Assembly: GCA_029210175.1 (NCBI GenBank)
Contig: JARGPL010000027.1
Coordinates: forward strand, 62,001-126,000
Direction of reading: 5' to 3'
Length of the DNA stretch: 64,000 nt
Source of the DNA: Minwuia sp.
GTDB taxonomy: Bacteria; Pseudomonadota; Alphaproteobacteria; Minwuiales; Minwuiaceae
The translations under genes and the position numbers were made by a program. Below the pieces are notes generated by a model. The model was given only the letters and a program-made list of their open reading frames with translations, had not been told where the DNA came from and ran no database searches. Positions 29,391 through 36,079 of this stretch are shown piece by piece (within the stretch, counting starts at the first letter, position 1; the number at the start of each line of letters is the position of its first letter).

Positions 29391-30137
29391 TCAGCTTCGT
29401 TTCTTGAATTTTTCTGCTGCGGCATCAAAGGTTCCTGATGTGGCGATGAGCGCATTGAGCTGCGTCCCCATGGCCAGGGCGTCATCGCGCGGCATGGCGC
29501 GGGCGGCCCGATGCAGTGCCTTGGTCAGCTTCACCCCGTCCGGGTTCAGCGCCGCGGCCCGGCCAATGAAACGGTCGGCAATGCGCTTCAGATCACCGAT
29601 ACCGTCCGCCAGCCGGTTGACCAGCCCCATCTCGTAGAGCCGGGCCGCGTCGATCATCTCACCGAACAGCAGCATTTCCAGGCCGAGCCGCGATCCGACC
29701 AGTTGCGCCAGCAGGGGCGTGTTCACCGCCGCGGGAAACCCGGAGCGCATCTCCAGCACACCGAACTGTGCGGTCCGCTCCGCGATCACGAAGTCACACC
29801 CCATGGCCAGCGTGAAACCACCGGCCACGGCATAGCCCTGAACCACCGCGACTGACGGTATCGCCAGCCGGTCGAGACGCCGAAAAACCTCCGTCCAGGC
29901 TTCATGGCGTTCCACGGCGGGGCCGAGATTGCGGTCCTCCCCCTGCGTCAGGTCGCGCCCGGCGCAGAAATGCTCCCCTTCGCCCCGGACGGCGAGGCAC
30001 CGCACCTGGCTGTCGCGGGAAATGTCATCAACCGCGCGGGCGATGTCGGCCATCATGCCGGCGGTCATCGCGTTGCGGGCTTCGGCGCGGTCGAGCACGA
30101 TGCTCGCCACCGCACCCTCATGCTCGATGCGGATCAA
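29391..30137 (-). CDS. Enoyl-CoA hydratase/isomerase family protein
   Basis: A 248-residue crotonase-fold enzyme. The oxyanion-hole segments are RGEGEHFCAGRDL (around 50-62) and VAGGFTLAMGCDFVIA (around 105-120), followed by FGVLEMRSGFP, where the catalytic glutamate region lies. Likely role: hydration or isomerisation of an unsaturated acyl-CoA. Translation probably starts at TTG 30137, which overlaps the stop of the thioesterase gene (TTGA); the N-terminal strand MIRIEHEGAVASI is intact from there. The pairing with a hotdog thioesterase suggests an acyl-CoA degradation step whose substrate is not evident. Confidence 0.87.
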   Translation of the reverse strand: MIRIEHEGAVASIVLDRAEARNAMTAGMMADIARAVDDISRDSQVRCLAVRGEGEHFCAGRDLTQGEDRNLGPAVERHEAWTEVFRRLDRLAIPSVAVVQGYAVAGGFTLAMGCDFVIAERTAQFGVLEMRSGFPAAVNTPLLAQLVGSRLGLEMLLFGEMIDAARLYEMGLVNRLADGIGDLKRIADRFIGRAAALNPDGVKLTKALHRAARAMPRDDALAMGTQLNALIATSGTFDAAAEKFKKRS

Positions 30138-30523
30138 GTCAGGTCACCGCCATCGGCACTGACGCCATGGACCGTCGGGCGCCCCTCCGCATCAATCGCC
30201 ACGAAGACAAAGTCGCCTTCCGTCACCTTCACAGTCTCGGTTCCGAACTTCCGGTGCACGATGGTTTCGATGTGCACGGTTACGGACGTCCGGCCAACCC
30301 CGGTGATCGACGTGAACAGGGACACGACGTCGCCGATGCGGATCGGTGCCTCGAACGTCATGGCCTCGATGGCGCGGGTGACGCAGCGGCTGCCCAGGTG
30401 GCGCGATGCGGCGACGCCGCCGGCGATATCCATCTGTGACAGCACCCAGCCGCCGAAGATGTCACCATTGGCGTTGCAGTCAGACGGCATGGGGGCGGCG
30501 CGCAGGGTGGGTTCTCGGGTCAT
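30134..30523 (-). CDS. Acyl-CoA thioesterase (hotdog fold, YciA-like)
   Basis: A 129-residue acyl-CoA hydrolase of the YciA/cytosolic thioesterase type. NANGDIFGGWVLSQMDIAGG carries the catalytic Asp and helix of this group, and it is followed by MTFEAPIRIGDVV. The start at 30523 follows GGAGAGAAC; the frame remains open upstream but the extra part is not conserved in character. Its stop overlaps the TTG start of the enoyl-CoA hydratase, so the two form a small operon. Confidence 0.9.
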   Translation of the reverse strand: MTREPTLRAAPMPSDCNANGDIFGGWVLSQMDIAGGVAASRHLGSRCVTRAIEAMTFEAPIRIGDVVSLFTSITGVGRTSVTVHIETIVHRKFGTETVKVTEGDFVFVAIDAEGRPTVHGVSADGGDLT

Positions 30524-30583
30524 GTCGGTTCTCTCCAGTGGGCTGGTCGGGCGAATCCAGGGGACGCTACAGTCGCGCAAACG

Positions 30584-30608
30584 AAAACAGGGGGCAATGT
30601 GCCCCCTG
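30584..30608 (-). terminator. Rho-independent terminator after the peroxiredoxin gene
   Basis: A perfect nine-pair stem (CAGGGGGCA / TGCCCCCTG) with a three-base loop is followed on the minus strand by TTTT. It is placed 36 bases past the peroxiredoxin stop and upstream of the thioesterase start. Confidence 0.8.
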
Positions 30609-30644
30609 CTCCCCAGGTCACGGATGACCGATTGGCGTGACGGA

Positions 30645-31157
30645 TCAGGCCGTGCCGCGAATCGGATAGCCCTTTTCCTTGATGAACTTGATGCCACGCA
30701 GGATGCTGGCAATCTCCGGTCGTGCGAACGGGGCGTTGGAGATGTCGACGATCTGCACCTGACCCTCGCCATTGACCACGAACATGCCGGGTTCCGGGAA
30801 TTCATGATCGGTCTCGTTCGGGCGCGGGGTCGAGACGTACAGGCCAAGCTGCTTCATATGCGCCACCGTCAGGCCATAGCCGACCGGCACCTTGACCTCG
30901 GTCTGTTCGACAGCCGCCTGGGCCTGTGCCTCCGAATCGCCGGAAACAGCAACCACATCCAGCCCGAGTTCCGTGATCTCGTCCTTCAGGGCATCAAGGC
31001 CACTGAGATAGCGCATGCAGATCGGACAATGCTTGCCGCGATAGACGATGACCATGCGCCAGTCGCCCGTCGGACCCAGGTTCAGTTCACCGCCGCCGAG
31101 TTTCGGCACCGTAATGGACGGCATGGCACCGCCTGCCGTGATCTTCCCGCTCATCAT
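30645..31157 (-). CDS. Peroxiredoxin-like AhpC/TSA family protein
   Basis: A 170-residue thioredoxin-fold peroxidase. The redox motif is KHCPICMRY with Cys44 and Cys47, matching the C-x-x-C arrangement of AhpC/TSA and PrxQ-like proteins, with the expected WRMVIVYRG strand before it. It should reduce peroxides in the cytoplasm using thiols. A GGAG site precedes two adjacent ATGs (31157 and 31154), either of which could be used. The gene lies 44 bases downstream of the rpoH-type sigma gene on the same strand and ends at a clear terminator, so read-through from the sigma gene is likely. Confidence 0.88.
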   Translation of the reverse strand: MMSGKITAGGAMPSITVPKLGGGELNLGPTGDWRMVIVYRGKHCPICMRYLSGLDALKDEITELGLDVVAVSGDSEAQAQAAVEQTEVKVPVGYGLTVAHMKQLGLYVSTPRPNETDHEFPEPGMFVVNGEGQVQIVDISNAPFARPEIASILRGIKFIKEKGYPIRGTA

Positions 31158-31201: not shown

Positions 31202-32110
31202 TCAGGCGGCCATGTCGTCGGTGATGGCAATCGGGCGACCCGCATCTGCCGCATCCCGGGCGCGACGCAACACGCCATCGGAAAGCTTCTGCAGGGCCTT
31301 GTGCTCGATCTGGCGTACCCGTTCCTTGGTCACGCCTAGCTGAACGCCCAGTTCCTCCAGCGTCACCTTTTCCTCATTCAGCTTCCGTTCCTTGACGATC
31401 AGCTGTTCGCGGTCGGTCAGGTCGGACAGGGCTTCGCGCAGCCACACACCACGGGTCGCCCCGTCACGCACGGTCTGCGTCACCTCTTCCGGAGAGGGCC
31501 GGTCGTCCACCAGGAAGTCACCCCATTCGTCGGAGCCTTCCTCACCCGCCGGGGCATTGAGGGACTGGTCCTTGGCCGACAGCCGGTTGGCCATGGCAAT
31601 GACTTCGCGGGTCGAGACCTTCAGCTTCTCGGAAATCTGGTCACGGGCCTCTTCGGTCAGGCTGGTGACACCTGCACCGTCGATCTGGGCGCGCAGGCGG
31701 CGCAGGTTGAAGAACAGGGCCTTTTGCGCGGCGCTGGTACCGGACCGGACAATGGACCAGTTGCGCAGCACGTATTCCTGCATCGACGACCGGATCCACC
31801 AGGTCGAGTAGGTGGAGAACCGCACGCCCCGTTCCGGTTCGAACCGGGCCGCAGCCTGCATCAGGCCGACACAGCCTTCCTGAACCAGATCAGCACGCGG
31901 CAGGCCATAGGCACGGAACCGTCCGGCGACCGAGACCACCAGGCGCATGTAGGCAGAGACCAGTTCATGCAAGGCACGCTCATCACCATGGTCGCGCCAG
32001 CGCAGTGCCAGATCCTGTTCGTGTTCGAACGAGAGCAGGGGCGCGGACATCGCCGTGGAGATGAACTGCTGTTCCTGCCGTACCGACTGCATCGCATTAT
32101 CATGAATCAT
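31202..32110 (-). CDS. rpoH: RNA polymerase sigma factor, RpoH family (RpoHII-like)
   Basis: A 302-residue sigma-70-family factor. The RpoH box QKALFFNLRRL after region 2.4 marks the heat-shock sigma group. Region 2 reads DLVQEGCVGLMQAA with RFSTYSTWWIRSSMQEYVLRNW, and region 4 ends in VTKERVRQIEHKALQKL. The WWIR and NWSIVRSGTSAAQKALFF pattern matches the RpoHII branch of alphaproteobacteria, which in Rhodobacter controls the singlet-oxygen and oxidative-stress regulon, better than classical RpoH. The start ATG 32110 is preferred, with GGTGA upstream; the longer frame is not conserved in character. It is divergent from a MarR regulator across a long inverted repeat and followed by a peroxiredoxin gene. 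Confidence 0.88.
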   Translation of the reverse strand: MIHDNAMQSVRQEQQFISTAMSAPLLSFEHEQDLALRWRDHGDERALHELVSAYMRLVVSVAGRFRAYGLPRADLVQEGCVGLMQAAARFEPERGVRFSTYSTWWIRSSMQEYVLRNWSIVRSGTSAAQKALFFNLRRLRAQIDGAGVTSLTEEARDQISEKLKVSTREVIAMANRLSAKDQSLNAPAGEEGSDEWGDFLVDDRPSPEEVTQTVRDGATRGVWLREALSDLTDREQLIVKERKLNEEKVTLEELGVQLGVTKERVRQIEHKALQKLSDGVLRRARDAADAGRPIAITDDMAA

Positions 32111-32206: not shown

Positions 32207-32277
32207 TTGGTTTCGCCTCGATACCTTAATGCAGCACGTTCGAGCCTCACAAGCATTAATTTTCGAGTCGAAACCAA
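32207..32277. promoter_or_regulatory. Long inverted repeat between rpoH and marR (operator candidate)
   Basis: Two arms of about 25 bases (32207-32232 and 32253-32277) are inverted copies that differ at only a few positions; both read TTGGTTTCG, then CTCGA, then TTAATGC from outside in. They are separated by 20 bases. The right arm contains the perfect 11-bp dyad TTCGA-G-TCGAA and ends directly at the marR start codon; the left arm has a degenerate copy. A possible minus-strand promoter for rpoH (TTGTGA, 17 bases, TTAAGG) lies between and within the arms. This suggests that one dimeric regulator, probably the MarR protein, controls both genes. Confidence 0.6.
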
Positions 32278-32928
32278 ATGACCGTGAACGACGGCCAGAC
32301 CAGAAGTGACAACGCTGATGCACGCCCCCCCGCCGCCCTGCCCGGCGCGATGGACCATGCGGCGCGTGTGGCCGAACTGATTGACCGACTTGGCCGGATG
32401 ACCCGCGAACTGCAGTATGTGGATGGGCTGAACCCGGCACAGTGGGAGGCCTTGCGCTATCTCAACCGGGCCAACCGCTATTCCCGCACCCCCGGCGGCG
32501 TTGCCGAGTTCCTCGGCGCGACGAAGGGCACGATTTCCCAGACCGTCTCGGCCCTGGAATCCAAGGGGCTGATCGCGCGCACGCCGAGCGATCGCGACAA
32601 GCGTGTCTGCCTGATCGACCTGACGGACGAAGGCAAGCGGATGATCGCCCGCGATCCCGTGCGCTGTATCGAGACGATTGTCGGCGAGATGGATGAGGCG
32701 ACGGCGGCCCAGATGGTCGGTGGCCTTGGCCGATTGATGGCCAGCCTGCAGATCGAACTCGGTTCCAAGCCCTTCGGCGTCTGTGTCGCCTGCTGCCGCC
32801 ATCTGGCCCCCGACGCGGGCTGCAAGCAATCCGAAGGTGCCCCGAAGTGCGGCATGACCGGGGAGCCGCTGAAAGGCGATGCGCCGCAGCGAATCTGCGT
32901 CAATTATCTCAACGACGCAGCCGAATAA
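32278..32928 (+). CDS. MarR-family regulator with cysteine-rich C-terminal tail
   Basis: A 216-residue regulator. A winged-helix MarR core (about 27-160) has recognition helix TKGTISQTVSALESKGLI and wing PSDRDKRVCLIDLTDEG. It is followed by a tail with six cysteines: Cys169, Cys172, Cys173, Cys182, Cys191 and Cys207 (FGVCVACCRH, GCKQ, KCGMTGEPL, ICVNY). The spacing suggests a metal or Fe-S site, or disulfide switches. There is no ribosome-binding site before ATG 32278, which abuts an inverted repeat, so the mRNA may be leaderless or translation may be controlled. It is divergent from the RpoHII-like gene, so a redox-sensing repressor of that gene is plausible (inference). Confidence 0.85.
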   Translation: MTVNDGQTRSDNADARPPAALPGAMDHAARVAELIDRLGRMTRELQYVDGLNPAQWEALRYLNRANRYSRTPGGVAEFLGATKGTISQTVSALESKGLIARTPSDRDKRVCLIDLTDEGKRMIARDPVRCIETIVGEMDEATAAQMVGGLGRLMASLQIELGSKPFGVCVACCRHLAPDAGCKQSEGAPKCGMTGEPLKGDAPQRICVNYLNDAAE

Positions 32929-32966: not shown

Positions 32967-35393
32967 ATGAACGATGCGTCTGTTTCCACCCATATCCTGC
33001 CCACGGCCTTCACTGAATGGTTCTGTCAGCGCGGCTGGCAGGCCCGGCCGCACCAGATCCGGCTGGCAGAGGTCGCTGCCCGTGGTGGCGATGCCTTGCT
33101 GATTGCGCCGACAGGTGGTGGCAAGACGCTGGCGGGGTTCCTGCCGACCCTGATCGACCTGGCAGCGAAACCACGACCCGGTCTGCACACGCTCTATGTT
33201 TCACCGCTGAAGGCCCTGACCTACGACATCGCGCAGAACCTCGACGCGCCGGTGCAGGAAATGGGCCTGCCGATCACGCTTGAAACACGCACCGGCGACA
33301 CGCCGCAGTCGAAGCGCCAGCGCCAGAAGAAGACCCCGCCCAACATCCTGCTGACGACCCCCGAACAGCTTGCCCTGCTGCTTGCCGCGCGGGAGGCGAA
33401 ACAGATGTTCCGTAATCTGGGGGCAGTGATCATCGACGAACTGCATGCCTTTGCCGACACCCGGCGCGGCGACCTGCTGGCGCTGGATCTGGCACGGCTG
33501 GGCGCCCTTGCCCCGGGCCACCGCCGGGTCGGTCTGTCGGCCACGGTGGCAGAGCCGGAACGGCTGGCCCGTTTCGTCGGACTGGCGCAGGGGCCGGCAA
33601 CGATTATCCGTGGTCCACCCGGCCCCCGCCCCGATGTCGCCATCCTGCGCGCGGAGGGGCGGATCCCCTGGTCGGGCCATACGGCAATGCATGTGATCCC
33701 GGAGATCTATCGGGCAATCCGCGCCCACCGCACCGTGCTGGTCTTCGTCAATACCCGCAGCCAGGCCGAGCGGGTGTTTCAGGAACTCTGGCGGGCCAAC
33801 GACGACGGGCTGGCCATCGCCCTGCATCACGGCAGCCTGGATGTGGAACGCCGCCGCAAGGTGGAAACGGCCATGGCGCGGGGTGCCCTGCGGGCCGTGG
33901 TCTGCACCTCCACCCTCGACCTCGGCATCGACTGGGGCGATGTGGATCTGGTCGTCCAGGTCGGGGCGCCGAAGGGGGCCGCGCGCACACTGCAGCGGAT
34001 CGGTCGGGCCAACCATCGCCTCGATGAGCCAAGCAAGGCCATGTTCGCCCCCGCCAACCGGTTCGAGGAACTGGAATGCCTTGCCGCGCTGGAGGCGCTG
34101 GCAGAGGGCCAGGTGGATGCCCCGCCTGCACGGGACGGGTCTCTCGACGTTCTGGCACAGCACGTTCTGGGAGTTGCCTGTGGCGCGCCGTTCGCAGCCG
34201 ACGACCTGTTTCGGGAAGTCATATCGACGGAGCCTTATCGCGAACTGGATCGGGAGACCTTCGACCGGGTGATCGATTTCGTGGCCACCGGCGGCTATTC
34301 GCTGAAACGCTATGAGCGCTATCACCGGTTGCGCCAGACCGTCGAGGGGCGGTGGCGCGTCGCCAACCCGCGCGTGGCGCAACAGTACCGCATGAACGTC
34401 GGCACCATTGTCGAAGCGCCGATGCTGAAGGTGCGCATCAGGGGCGGGCGAAACCTCGGCGAGATCGAGGAGTATTTCATCGAGCAGTTGAGCCCCGGCG
34501 ATACCTTCATCTTCGCGGGCGAGATCCTGCGCTTTCAGTCCGTGCAGGAAACCACCGCCATCGTCACCCGCGCACCGGGGGAAGAAGCCAGCGTGCCAAG
34601 CTATCAGGGCGGCAAGTTCCCGCTGTCCACCTTTCTGGCAGAGAAGGTGCGCGCCATCCTGGCAGACCCCGGCCAGCACCCGGGCCTGTCGCCGCAGGTG
34701 CGCGACTGGCTGGGGATACAGAGCTGGCGATCCGTGCTGCCCCGCCCGGACCAGCTGCTGGTGGAGACATTCCCCCGCGCGAAGAAGCATTACCTCGTCG
34801 CCTACCCGTTCGAGGGACGGCTGGCGCACCAGACGCTCGGCATGCTGCTGACCCGGCGCATGGAACGGATGCGGTTACGGCCCTTGGGCTTTGTCGCCAG
34901 CGACTATGCGATCGCGGTCTGGTCGCTGCGCCCGGTCGAGGACGTGGACGAACTGTTCGCACCGGACATGCTGGGGGACGATCTGGATGCCTGGCTGGAC
35001 GAATCCATCCTGATGAAACGCACTTTCCGCAACGTCGCCACCATCGCCGGACTGATCGAGCGGCGGTTTCCGGGTCAGGAGAAGTCCGGCCGCCAGATGA
35101 CCATTTCGTCGGATCTGATCTACGACGTCCTGCGCGAACATGAACCGGACCACATCCTGCTGCGCGCGACGTGGGAGGACGCGGCCACCGGCCTGCTGGA
35201 CGTGCGCAGGCTGGGCGACATGCTGGTCCGGGTGCAGGGTCACATTCACCTGCAGCGGCTGGACCGCATCTCACCGCTCGCCGTCCCCGTGATGCTGGAA
35301 ATCGGCAAGGAACCGGTGATCGGCGAAGCCATGGGCGACATCATAGCCGAAGCCGCCGACGGCCTGATGGCAGAGGCGTCGGTGCTGCTATGA
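32967..35393 (+). CDS. Ligase-associated DEXH-box DNA helicase (Lhr-like)
   Basis: An 808-residue superfamily 2 helicase of the Lhr-like group tied to bacterial DNA repair. Motif I APTGGGKTLAG is near residue 48, motif II reads IIDELHAF, motif III GLSATVAEP, and motif VI IGRANHRLDEP. The long C-terminal half carries the Lhr winged-helix region. Its TGA overlaps the ATG of pdeM. In many proteobacteria these two genes form a damage-response operon with an ATP-dependent DNA ligase and an exonuclease, but those two genes are not seen here. Confidence 0.92.
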   Translation: MNDASVSTHILPTAFTEWFCQRGWQARPHQIRLAEVAARGGDALLIAPTGGGKTLAGFLPTLIDLAAKPRPGLHTLYVSPLKALTYDIAQNLDAPVQEMGLPITLETRTGDTPQSKRQRQKKTPPNILLTTPEQLALLLAAREAKQMFRNLGAVIIDELHAFADTRRGDLLALDLARLGALAPGHRRVGLSATVAEPERLARFVGLAQGPATIIRGPPGPRPDVAILRAEGRIPWSGHTAMHVIPEIYRAIRAHRTVLVFVNTRSQAERVFQELWRANDDGLAIALHHGSLDVERRRKVETAMARGALRAVVCTSTLDLGIDWGDVDLVVQVGAPKGAARTLQRIGRANHRLDEPSKAMFAPANRFEELECLAALEALAEGQVDAPPARDGSLDVLAQHVLGVACGAPFAADDLFREVISTEPYRELDRETFDRVIDFVATGGYSLKRYERYHRLRQTVEGRWRVANPRVAQQYRMNVGTIVEAPMLKVRIRGGRNLGEIEEYFIEQLSPGDTFIFAGEILRFQSVQETTAIVTRAPGEEASVPSYQGGKFPLSTFLAEKVRAILADPGQHPGLSPQVRDWLGIQSWRSVLPRPDQLLVETFPRAKKHYLVAYPFEGRLAHQTLGMLLTRRMERMRLRPLGFVASDYAIAVWSLRPVEDVDELFAPDMLGDDLDAWLDESILMKRTFRNVATIAGLIERRFPGQEKSGRQMTISSDLIYDVLREHEPDHILLRATWEDAATGLLDVRRLGDMLVRVQGHIHLQRLDRISPLAVPVMLEIGKEPVIGEAMGDIIAEAADGLMAEASVLL

Positions 35394-36079
35394 CGACAAC
35401 GGAAATGGTCGTCAATGGTGCGCGCCTGCAGCCTGATCCATCGGGTGCGGTCTGGTGGCCAGCGGAGGGGATGCTGATCGTATCGGACCTGCATTTCGAG
35501 AAGGGTTCCGCCATGGCCCGGCGCGGGCATGGCCTGTTGCCGCCCTACGACACGGCAACCACGCTGACCCGGCTGGAAGCCCTGTTGCAGCACTACCGGC
35601 CCGCCCGATTGCTCGCCCTGGGCGACAGTTTTCATGACCGGCACGCGTTCAGCCGCCTCAGCGCGAATGAGACAGACCGGCTTGCGGCCCTGTCGCAGCG
35701 CCAGGAAATGATCTGGATCACCGGCAACCACGATCCCGAACCGCCTGACAGCATCGGCGGGCGCATTCTGGAAACATATCCCTGCGGCCCGCTGCTTTTC
35801 CGCCATGAACCCGTCGTGGGGCGGGCGCCGGGCGAAGTCGCGGGGCATCTGCACCCAAAGGCCCGGATCAGGGGGCGGGGTCGGCAGGTTCGGGCGCGCT
35901 GTTTCGCAACCGACGGTCTGCGGCTGATCGTGCCTGCATTCGGGGCCTATACCGGTGGGCTCGACGTCATGGACGCCGCCTTCAGACCGCTGTTCCCGAA
36001 GATGTTTCACGCATGGATGATGACCGGAGACCGGGTCCTGCCCGTACGATCGGACCGGCTTGTCGCGGCGGTTGCCTGA
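35390..36079 (+). CDS. pdeM: PdeM-type ligase-associated DNA damage response endonuclease
   Basis: A 229-residue calcineurin-like metallophosphoesterase. Metal-binding motifs are SDLHFEKGS (about 29-37), LGDSFHD and GNHDPE, with a late GHLHPK. This is the protein encoded beside Lhr-like helicases in ligase-associated repair operons, where it is thought to process DNA ends. It overlaps the helicase gene by four bases (ATGA), giving coupled translation. ATG 35390 is required by that overlap; the open frame further upstream is antisense-like filler within the helicase gene. Confidence 0.9.
   Translation: MTTTEMVVNGARLQPDPSGAVWWPAEGMLIVSDLHFEKGSAMARRGHGLLPPYDTATTLTRLEALLQHYRPARLLALGDSFHDRHAFSRLSANETDRLAALSQRQEMIWITGNHDPEPPDSIGGRILETYPCGPLLFRHEPVVGRAPGEVAGHLHPKARIRGRGRQVRARCFATDGLRLIVPAFGAYTGGLDVMDAAFRPLFPKMFHAWMMTGDRVLPVRSDRLVAAVA

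Follow-up and report, generated by a model that had tools for sequence, protein, structure and literature searches.

MarR-family repressors such as OhrR, MgrA/SarZ and E. coli MarR (PF12802/PF01047) combine a winged-helix dimer core with short palindromic operators, and oxidation-sensitive repression is a known theme among them, the sensing cysteine lying within the MarR core. In alphaproteobacteria, large stress regulons depend on RpoH2-type sigma factors, whose known switch is the RpoE–ChrR pair: in Rhodobacter, singlet oxygen leads to activation of rpoHII by RpoE that has been freed from ChrR (PMC7074977). Among proteins with a MarR-like winged helix, ArnR of Corynebacteria comes closest to a precedent for cysteines clustered at the C-terminus: its MarR/ArsR-like winged helix is followed by a C-terminal cysteine region, it carries a [4Fe-4S] cluster, and it no longer binds DNA once exposed to NO (PMC12343034).

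Here we analyse a locus in a 64,000-nucleotide stretch (the window) of the 4.1-Mb genome of an alphaproteobacterium, Minwuia sp., at which a MarR-family gene with a cysteine-bearing tail stands divergent from an rpoH2-type gene. As in Rhodobacter, the gene switched on by oxidative stress would be one for a sigma factor of the RpoHII type (PMC7074977), but a divergent repressor would take the place of a sigma/anti-sigma pair acting in trans. Unlike in OhrR, MgrA/SarZ and E. coli MarR, the conserved cysteines lie in a separate C-terminal tail without a Pfam or PDB match. ArnR, for its part, has three conserved cysteines as opposed to four here, is actinobacterial and has nitrate respiration and hmp, not a sigma factor, under its control (PMC12343034). 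Two further proteins, WP_003086060 of Pseudomonas aeruginosa and WP_087878550 of Enterobacter, share the same core, the four-cysteine (Cys4) tail and similar palindromes, but face a small thioredoxin-fold gene instead of rpoH. No characterisation of tailed MarRs of this latter type was found in the literature searched, and that search, which covered few subscription papers, brought up no article dealing with the Cys4 tail or with a MarR divergent from rpoH2. The features of the locus are as follows.

30645..31157, minus strand: AhpC/TSA-type redoxin gene (Pfam AhpC-TSA), 44 bp downstream of rpoH2 and read in its direction
31202..32110, minus strand: rpoH2-type sigma-32 gene (PRK07500), likely ATG at 32110, in-frame upstream starts possible
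32211..32223: predicted operator 1 (palindrome comparison), rpoH2-proximal, TTTCGCCTCGATA, 12/13 to TWTCGASTCGAWA
32223..32252, minus strand: candidate rpoH2 promoter read from the sequence, TTGTGA, spacer of 18, TAAGGT, its last base being the first of operator 1
32261..32273: predicted operator 2 (palindrome comparison), marR-proximal, TTTCGAGTCGAAA, 13/13, 4 bp before the ATG
32278..32928, plus strand: marR, encoding a 216-aa repressor of the MarR family that ends in a Cys4 tail (ORF, Pfam, alignment)
32773..32928, plus strand: C-terminal tail from F166 to the stop, C169-x2-C172-x18-C191-x15-C207 (alignment; cysteines in 79/79)

The MarR core and its four-cysteine tail

The core of the 216-aa protein is that of an ordinary MarR regulator, as an earlier note on this DNA had described it: PF12802 (MarR_2) matches with E=1.4e-14 and 54.4 bits (gathering score 27), and Foldseek places the winged-helix domain with MepR, FabT and SlyA. 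The protein does not fit an OhrR-type thiol sensor: the OhrR model scores 22.8 bits against a cut-off of 200, and the core cysteines are poorly kept among 79 relatives (Cys 111 in 8/79, Cys 130 in 25/79).

Besides these two, the protein carries cysteines at 169, 172, 173, 182, 191 and 207, and codons 169 to 207 correspond exactly to 32782-32898, so that the earlier note, which had singled out a six-cysteine tail, gave positions and coordinates correctly. The conservation check that it proposed leaves a smaller unit: C169, C172, C191 and C207 are invariant in all 79 aligned relatives (mean column identity 40%), which were picked for tail presence and in which invariance is thus a property of the tailed family, whereas C173 (12/79) and C182 (9/79) are lineage extras, and the six-cysteine cluster was dropped accordingly. 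Across relatives the motif reads C-x2-C-x(11-27)-C-x15-C, with an invariant glycine just before it. In an unselected count, the tail was present in 76 of the best 80 relatives found by MarR-core pattern matching. A profile of the tail matched in 16/299 Pseudomonadota genomes, and the matches that were read are MarR-like proteins. The earlier note had supposed that similar tails may exist in other proteobacterial MarR proteins, and Pseudomonas and Enterobacter do have them.

As regards the Fe-S cluster regulators Rrf2, FNR, SufR and ArnR, whose cluster is held by cysteine ligands, the Cys4 motif is present, but Pfam returned no family over the tail and no Fe-S domain in the protein; a PDB sequence search with the tail gave no significant match; its only hit, eL34, was rejected as a homologue at E=1.5. 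A HiPIP-like [4Fe-4S] domain likewise found no sequence match in Pfam or PDB, and the two CxxC knuckles of a classical zinc ribbon do not occur, the second pair being C-x15-C in 79/79. The tail stayed unresolved in a first structure model, built from 12 sequences; an AlphaFold2 model with 79 sequences was better, its confidence in the tail being moderate (pLDDT of about 60-86 as block means), and Foldseek with this model matched the core alone, the tail finding no counterpart. Downstream of marR, after a gap of 38 bp, lie a ligase-associated DEXH helicase gene (TIGR04121) and then a phosphoesterase-like ORF (32967-36079, plus strand), with which marR may be co-transcribed in the Minwuia genus.

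The divergent sigma factor gene and the predicted operators

On the opposite strand to marR, the neighbouring gene is of RpoH2 type, as the earlier note had read it, with 384.4 bits on PRK07500 against a curated cut-off of 315; a second RpoH in the host genome scores lower. The arrangement is widespread. All 13 tailed relatives read in a first genome set (L033-L045) are divergent from RpoH, the closest tail-less relatives are not, and a distant tailed relative with 31% identity (L047) has no RpoH nearby. In an independent named set, gathered by a protein-only search, RpoH lies divergent and immediately upstream in 63/76 tail-bearing loci. The RpoH-facing loci form one clade of 66 rows in a maximum-likelihood tree, 64 of them next to rpoH and the two exceptions (L140 and L148) cut by contig ends. 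Outside this clade, rpoH also lies opposite the gene of a Bradyrhizobium-type relative, as seen in a genome that was drawn independently and on a plasmid with annotation. Back-to-back placement of the tailed MarR and a stress sigma gene is thus found in about sixty genomes of alphaproteobacteria, and the linkage is kept while RpoH identity drops to 44-66%.

Comparison of the marR–rpoH intergenic regions brought out the odd 13-bp palindrome TWTCGASTCGAWA in two copies. Counting matches of >=11/13, at least one copy is present in 63/63 regions and at least two in 56/63, compared with 2.8% and 0% in a dinucleotide-shuffle control, a comparison that is favourable because many of the loci are related to one another and some of this family had already served to derive the consensus. 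The paired copies are mostly 44-49 or 51-57 bp apart. On the basis of its distribution, the predicted site goes with the tailed MarR and not with the sigma gene, given that RpoH2 genes without a tailed MarR, including the second RpoH2 of genome G008, reach 8-9/13 at best and that several tailed MarRs without RpoH still have the palindrome; it is absent at five others that lack RpoH (L152, L154 and L157-L159). In the host genome the exact palindrome occurs at this locus only, and looser matches come near or equal to the control (8 vs 5 with one mismatch, 81 vs 80 with two), so that the regulator looks dedicated to the rpoH2–marR locus and a wider regulon was rejected. An extra exact copy in another genome (G003) sits within an HflK-like coding sequence.

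The predicted sites lie near the regulator's own and the divergent promoter, as is typical of MarR operators. The candidate rpoH2 promoter is weak in the window and clearer in sister species (TTGTGG-N17-TAAAGT); a consensus promoter scan of the window found none, and neither promoter is close to consensus. In many relatives, a sigma70-like rpoH promoter (TTGnnn-N17-TAnnnT) ends on operator 1, directly abutting that palindrome, and a marR promoter of the type TTGCAA-N17-TACTAT spans operator 2, although such promoters were picked by best score, with no shuffle control, and serve as supporting evidence only. By the same search, the -35 positions of the best promoters fall within 3 bp of each other in 30/51 loci but coincide exactly, and read TTGCAA, in only a few, and a -35 shared by both promoters is not claimed as a general rule. 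With only 4 bp between operator 2 and the ATG, the start or leader of marR is uncertain in the Minwuia genus.

The earlier note had proposed a repressor controlling the sigma factor itself. Control of rpoH2 is strongly supported by the divergent synteny, the clade-wide paired palindromes, their lack at MarR-less rpoH2 genes and the promoter overlap in many relatives, and, judged from these sequence features, the tailed MarR is very probably a dedicated repressor of rpoH2 and of itself. The note had also drawn on a neighbouring peroxiredoxin. An AhpC-TSA gene does adjoin rpoH2, with which it is possibly co-transcribed, but it does so in the same genus only; it is hence weak evidence, and a peroxiredoxin link was rejected as a general feature. 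The redoxin ORF and a thioesterase ORF overlap as listed (30134-31157, minus strand), the true start of the thioesterase probably lying further downstream.

The proposed switch and its alternatives

What the regulator may sense is suggested by the tailed MarRs without RpoH, whose divergent genes are repeatedly of redox type. AhpC/TSA-type redoxins stand opposite the regulator in L150 and L156, a redoxin behind a cytochrome P460 gene faces it in L153, and a glutaredoxin–rhodanese fusion is divergent from it in L160. Small HAGCPVC thioredoxin-like proteins take this position in L197-L199, L202, L204 and L205; the P. aeruginosa protein faces an annotated thioredoxin and the Enterobacter protein a glutaredoxin, and in Ruegeria a cluster of redoxin and hexameric tyrosine-coordinated haem protein is faced. 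There are also non-redox partners, among them an ABC transporter in Leisingera and, in L152, a gene resembling those for penicillin-binding proteins. That the Cys4 tail senses redox stress is accordingly somewhat favoured, and it is plausible that the four cysteines form a metal or Fe-S site or a thiol switch, considering both the invariance of the four cysteines and the thioredoxin, glutaredoxin and redoxin genes that relatives face.

We suggest that a MarR dimer binds each of the two 13-bp palindromes between marR and rpoH2, one per core promoter, and that the bound repressor would silence both genes together, as the conserved DNA implies. The Cys4 tail would most likely hold a metal, in the form of an Fe-S cluster (slightly preferred) or of a zinc-thiolate. 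Damage to this site by an oxidant, an electrophile or nitric oxide may lower DNA affinity and so induce rpoH2, and in the Minwuia genus perhaps also the redoxin gene behind it; repressor made along with rpoH2 would then reset the switch. We consider this scheme of an autoregulated rpoH2 repressor with two operators and a Cys4 metal site as its sensor fairly probable as a whole: Cys4 conservation, synteny and paired palindromes are observed, and binding, repression, metal and signal are inferred. Against it count the tail's want of a match to any known Fe-S or zinc family, the moderate model confidence, the partners outside redox metabolism and the weak promoters of the window.

The choice of metal is nearly balanced. 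The slight lean towards Fe-S over zinc draws on the likeness to ArnR and on the spacing C-x2-C...C-x15-C, which we take to be more like HiPIP-type Fe-S motifs and which, on that assumption, speaks against zinc, as does the missing second CxxC knuckle of classical zinc ribbons. Four cysteines binding Zn(II), with disulfide oxidation ejecting the metal and freeing the DNA as in RsrA, would nevertheless accord with the four invariant residues (one CxxC knuckle included) and with the thiol-redox genes adjoining tailed MarRs of the non-RpoH branch, and RsrA is described as a zinc anti-sigma factor that answers disulfide stress (PMC4960319); we hold such a switch to be possible, but doubtful. That the tail is instead a purely structural metal site shaping the dimer, the signal being a small ligand bound in the pocket typical of MarR proteins, seems unlikely: a ligand-specific regulator would not be predicted to have redox genes divergent from it repeatedly across distant hosts, even if some tailed MarRs do face transport genes (the Leisingera ABC transporter). 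Most MarR regulators do respond to ligands, which counts in favour of this structural role.

It is far less probable still that the MarR acts on itself alone while its neighbourhood hitch-hikes and rpoH2 answers to RpoE/ChrR, as rpoHII does to RpoE in R. sphaeroides (PMC7074977). A full-length ChrR anti-sigma gene is indeed present in the host genome, but mere hitch-hiking sits poorly with the rpoH-side operator abutting the predicted -10 in many loci, with a linkage that outlasts the divergence of RpoH, and with four tailed-MarR genomes (G015, G024, G087 and G093) in which no ChrR exceeds the cut-off. Given the full-length ChrR, RpoE may control rpoH2 as well as, or instead of, the MarR; on this ground and in view of the four genomes, we regard the repressor as an additional or alternative input to rpoH2 and not as an exclusive replacement of RpoE–ChrR. 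With its paired operators and an unnamed cysteine domain, a repressor tied to rpoH2 throughout one clade would offer a testable second input to the RpoH2 regulon, and the wider Cys4-tailed MarR family, Pseudomonas and Enterobacter included, seems built around thiol redox. Only tentatively do we extend this to the broader proposal of an undescribed MarR clade whose new C-terminal Cys4 Fe-S domain would make it a second, one-component RpoHII switch in alphaproteobacteria, parallel to or replacing RpoE–ChrR, and part of a larger family of MarRs with Cys4 tails that guard thiol-redox genes in proteobacteria.

Further observations around tailed MarRs

On a Bradyrhizobium conjugative plasmid, an FdxA ferredoxin gene lies directly behind the RpoH-linked tailed MarR (L215 4136-4471). 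The glutaredoxin–rhodanese protein of L160 (1967-2893, minus strand) is a three-domain fusion with an Fe-S biosynthesis-like domain between the two, its contig carrying the label of a gammaproteobacterial MAG. HAGCPVC-type thioredoxin/glutaredoxin-like proteins are divergent from the tailed MarR in L197, L198, L199, L202, L204, L205, L214 and L216, with a Rho-binding antiterminator near the gene in Pseudomonas (L214) and Enterobacter (L216), and they possibly constitute an uncharacterised thiol-redox module with the regulator. A secreted-looking protein of ~250 aa, for which Pfam gave no match in the two copies searched (L155 and L161), recurs facing or near tailed MarRs without RpoH (L198 5660-6451, L199 3554-4303, L206 3640-4407, L155 2148-3068 and L161 2020-2805) and carries motifs like FDIVxAHA, VYSYVWPTSLD and GILALAxTSHPDFDDTPxxDENGDG.
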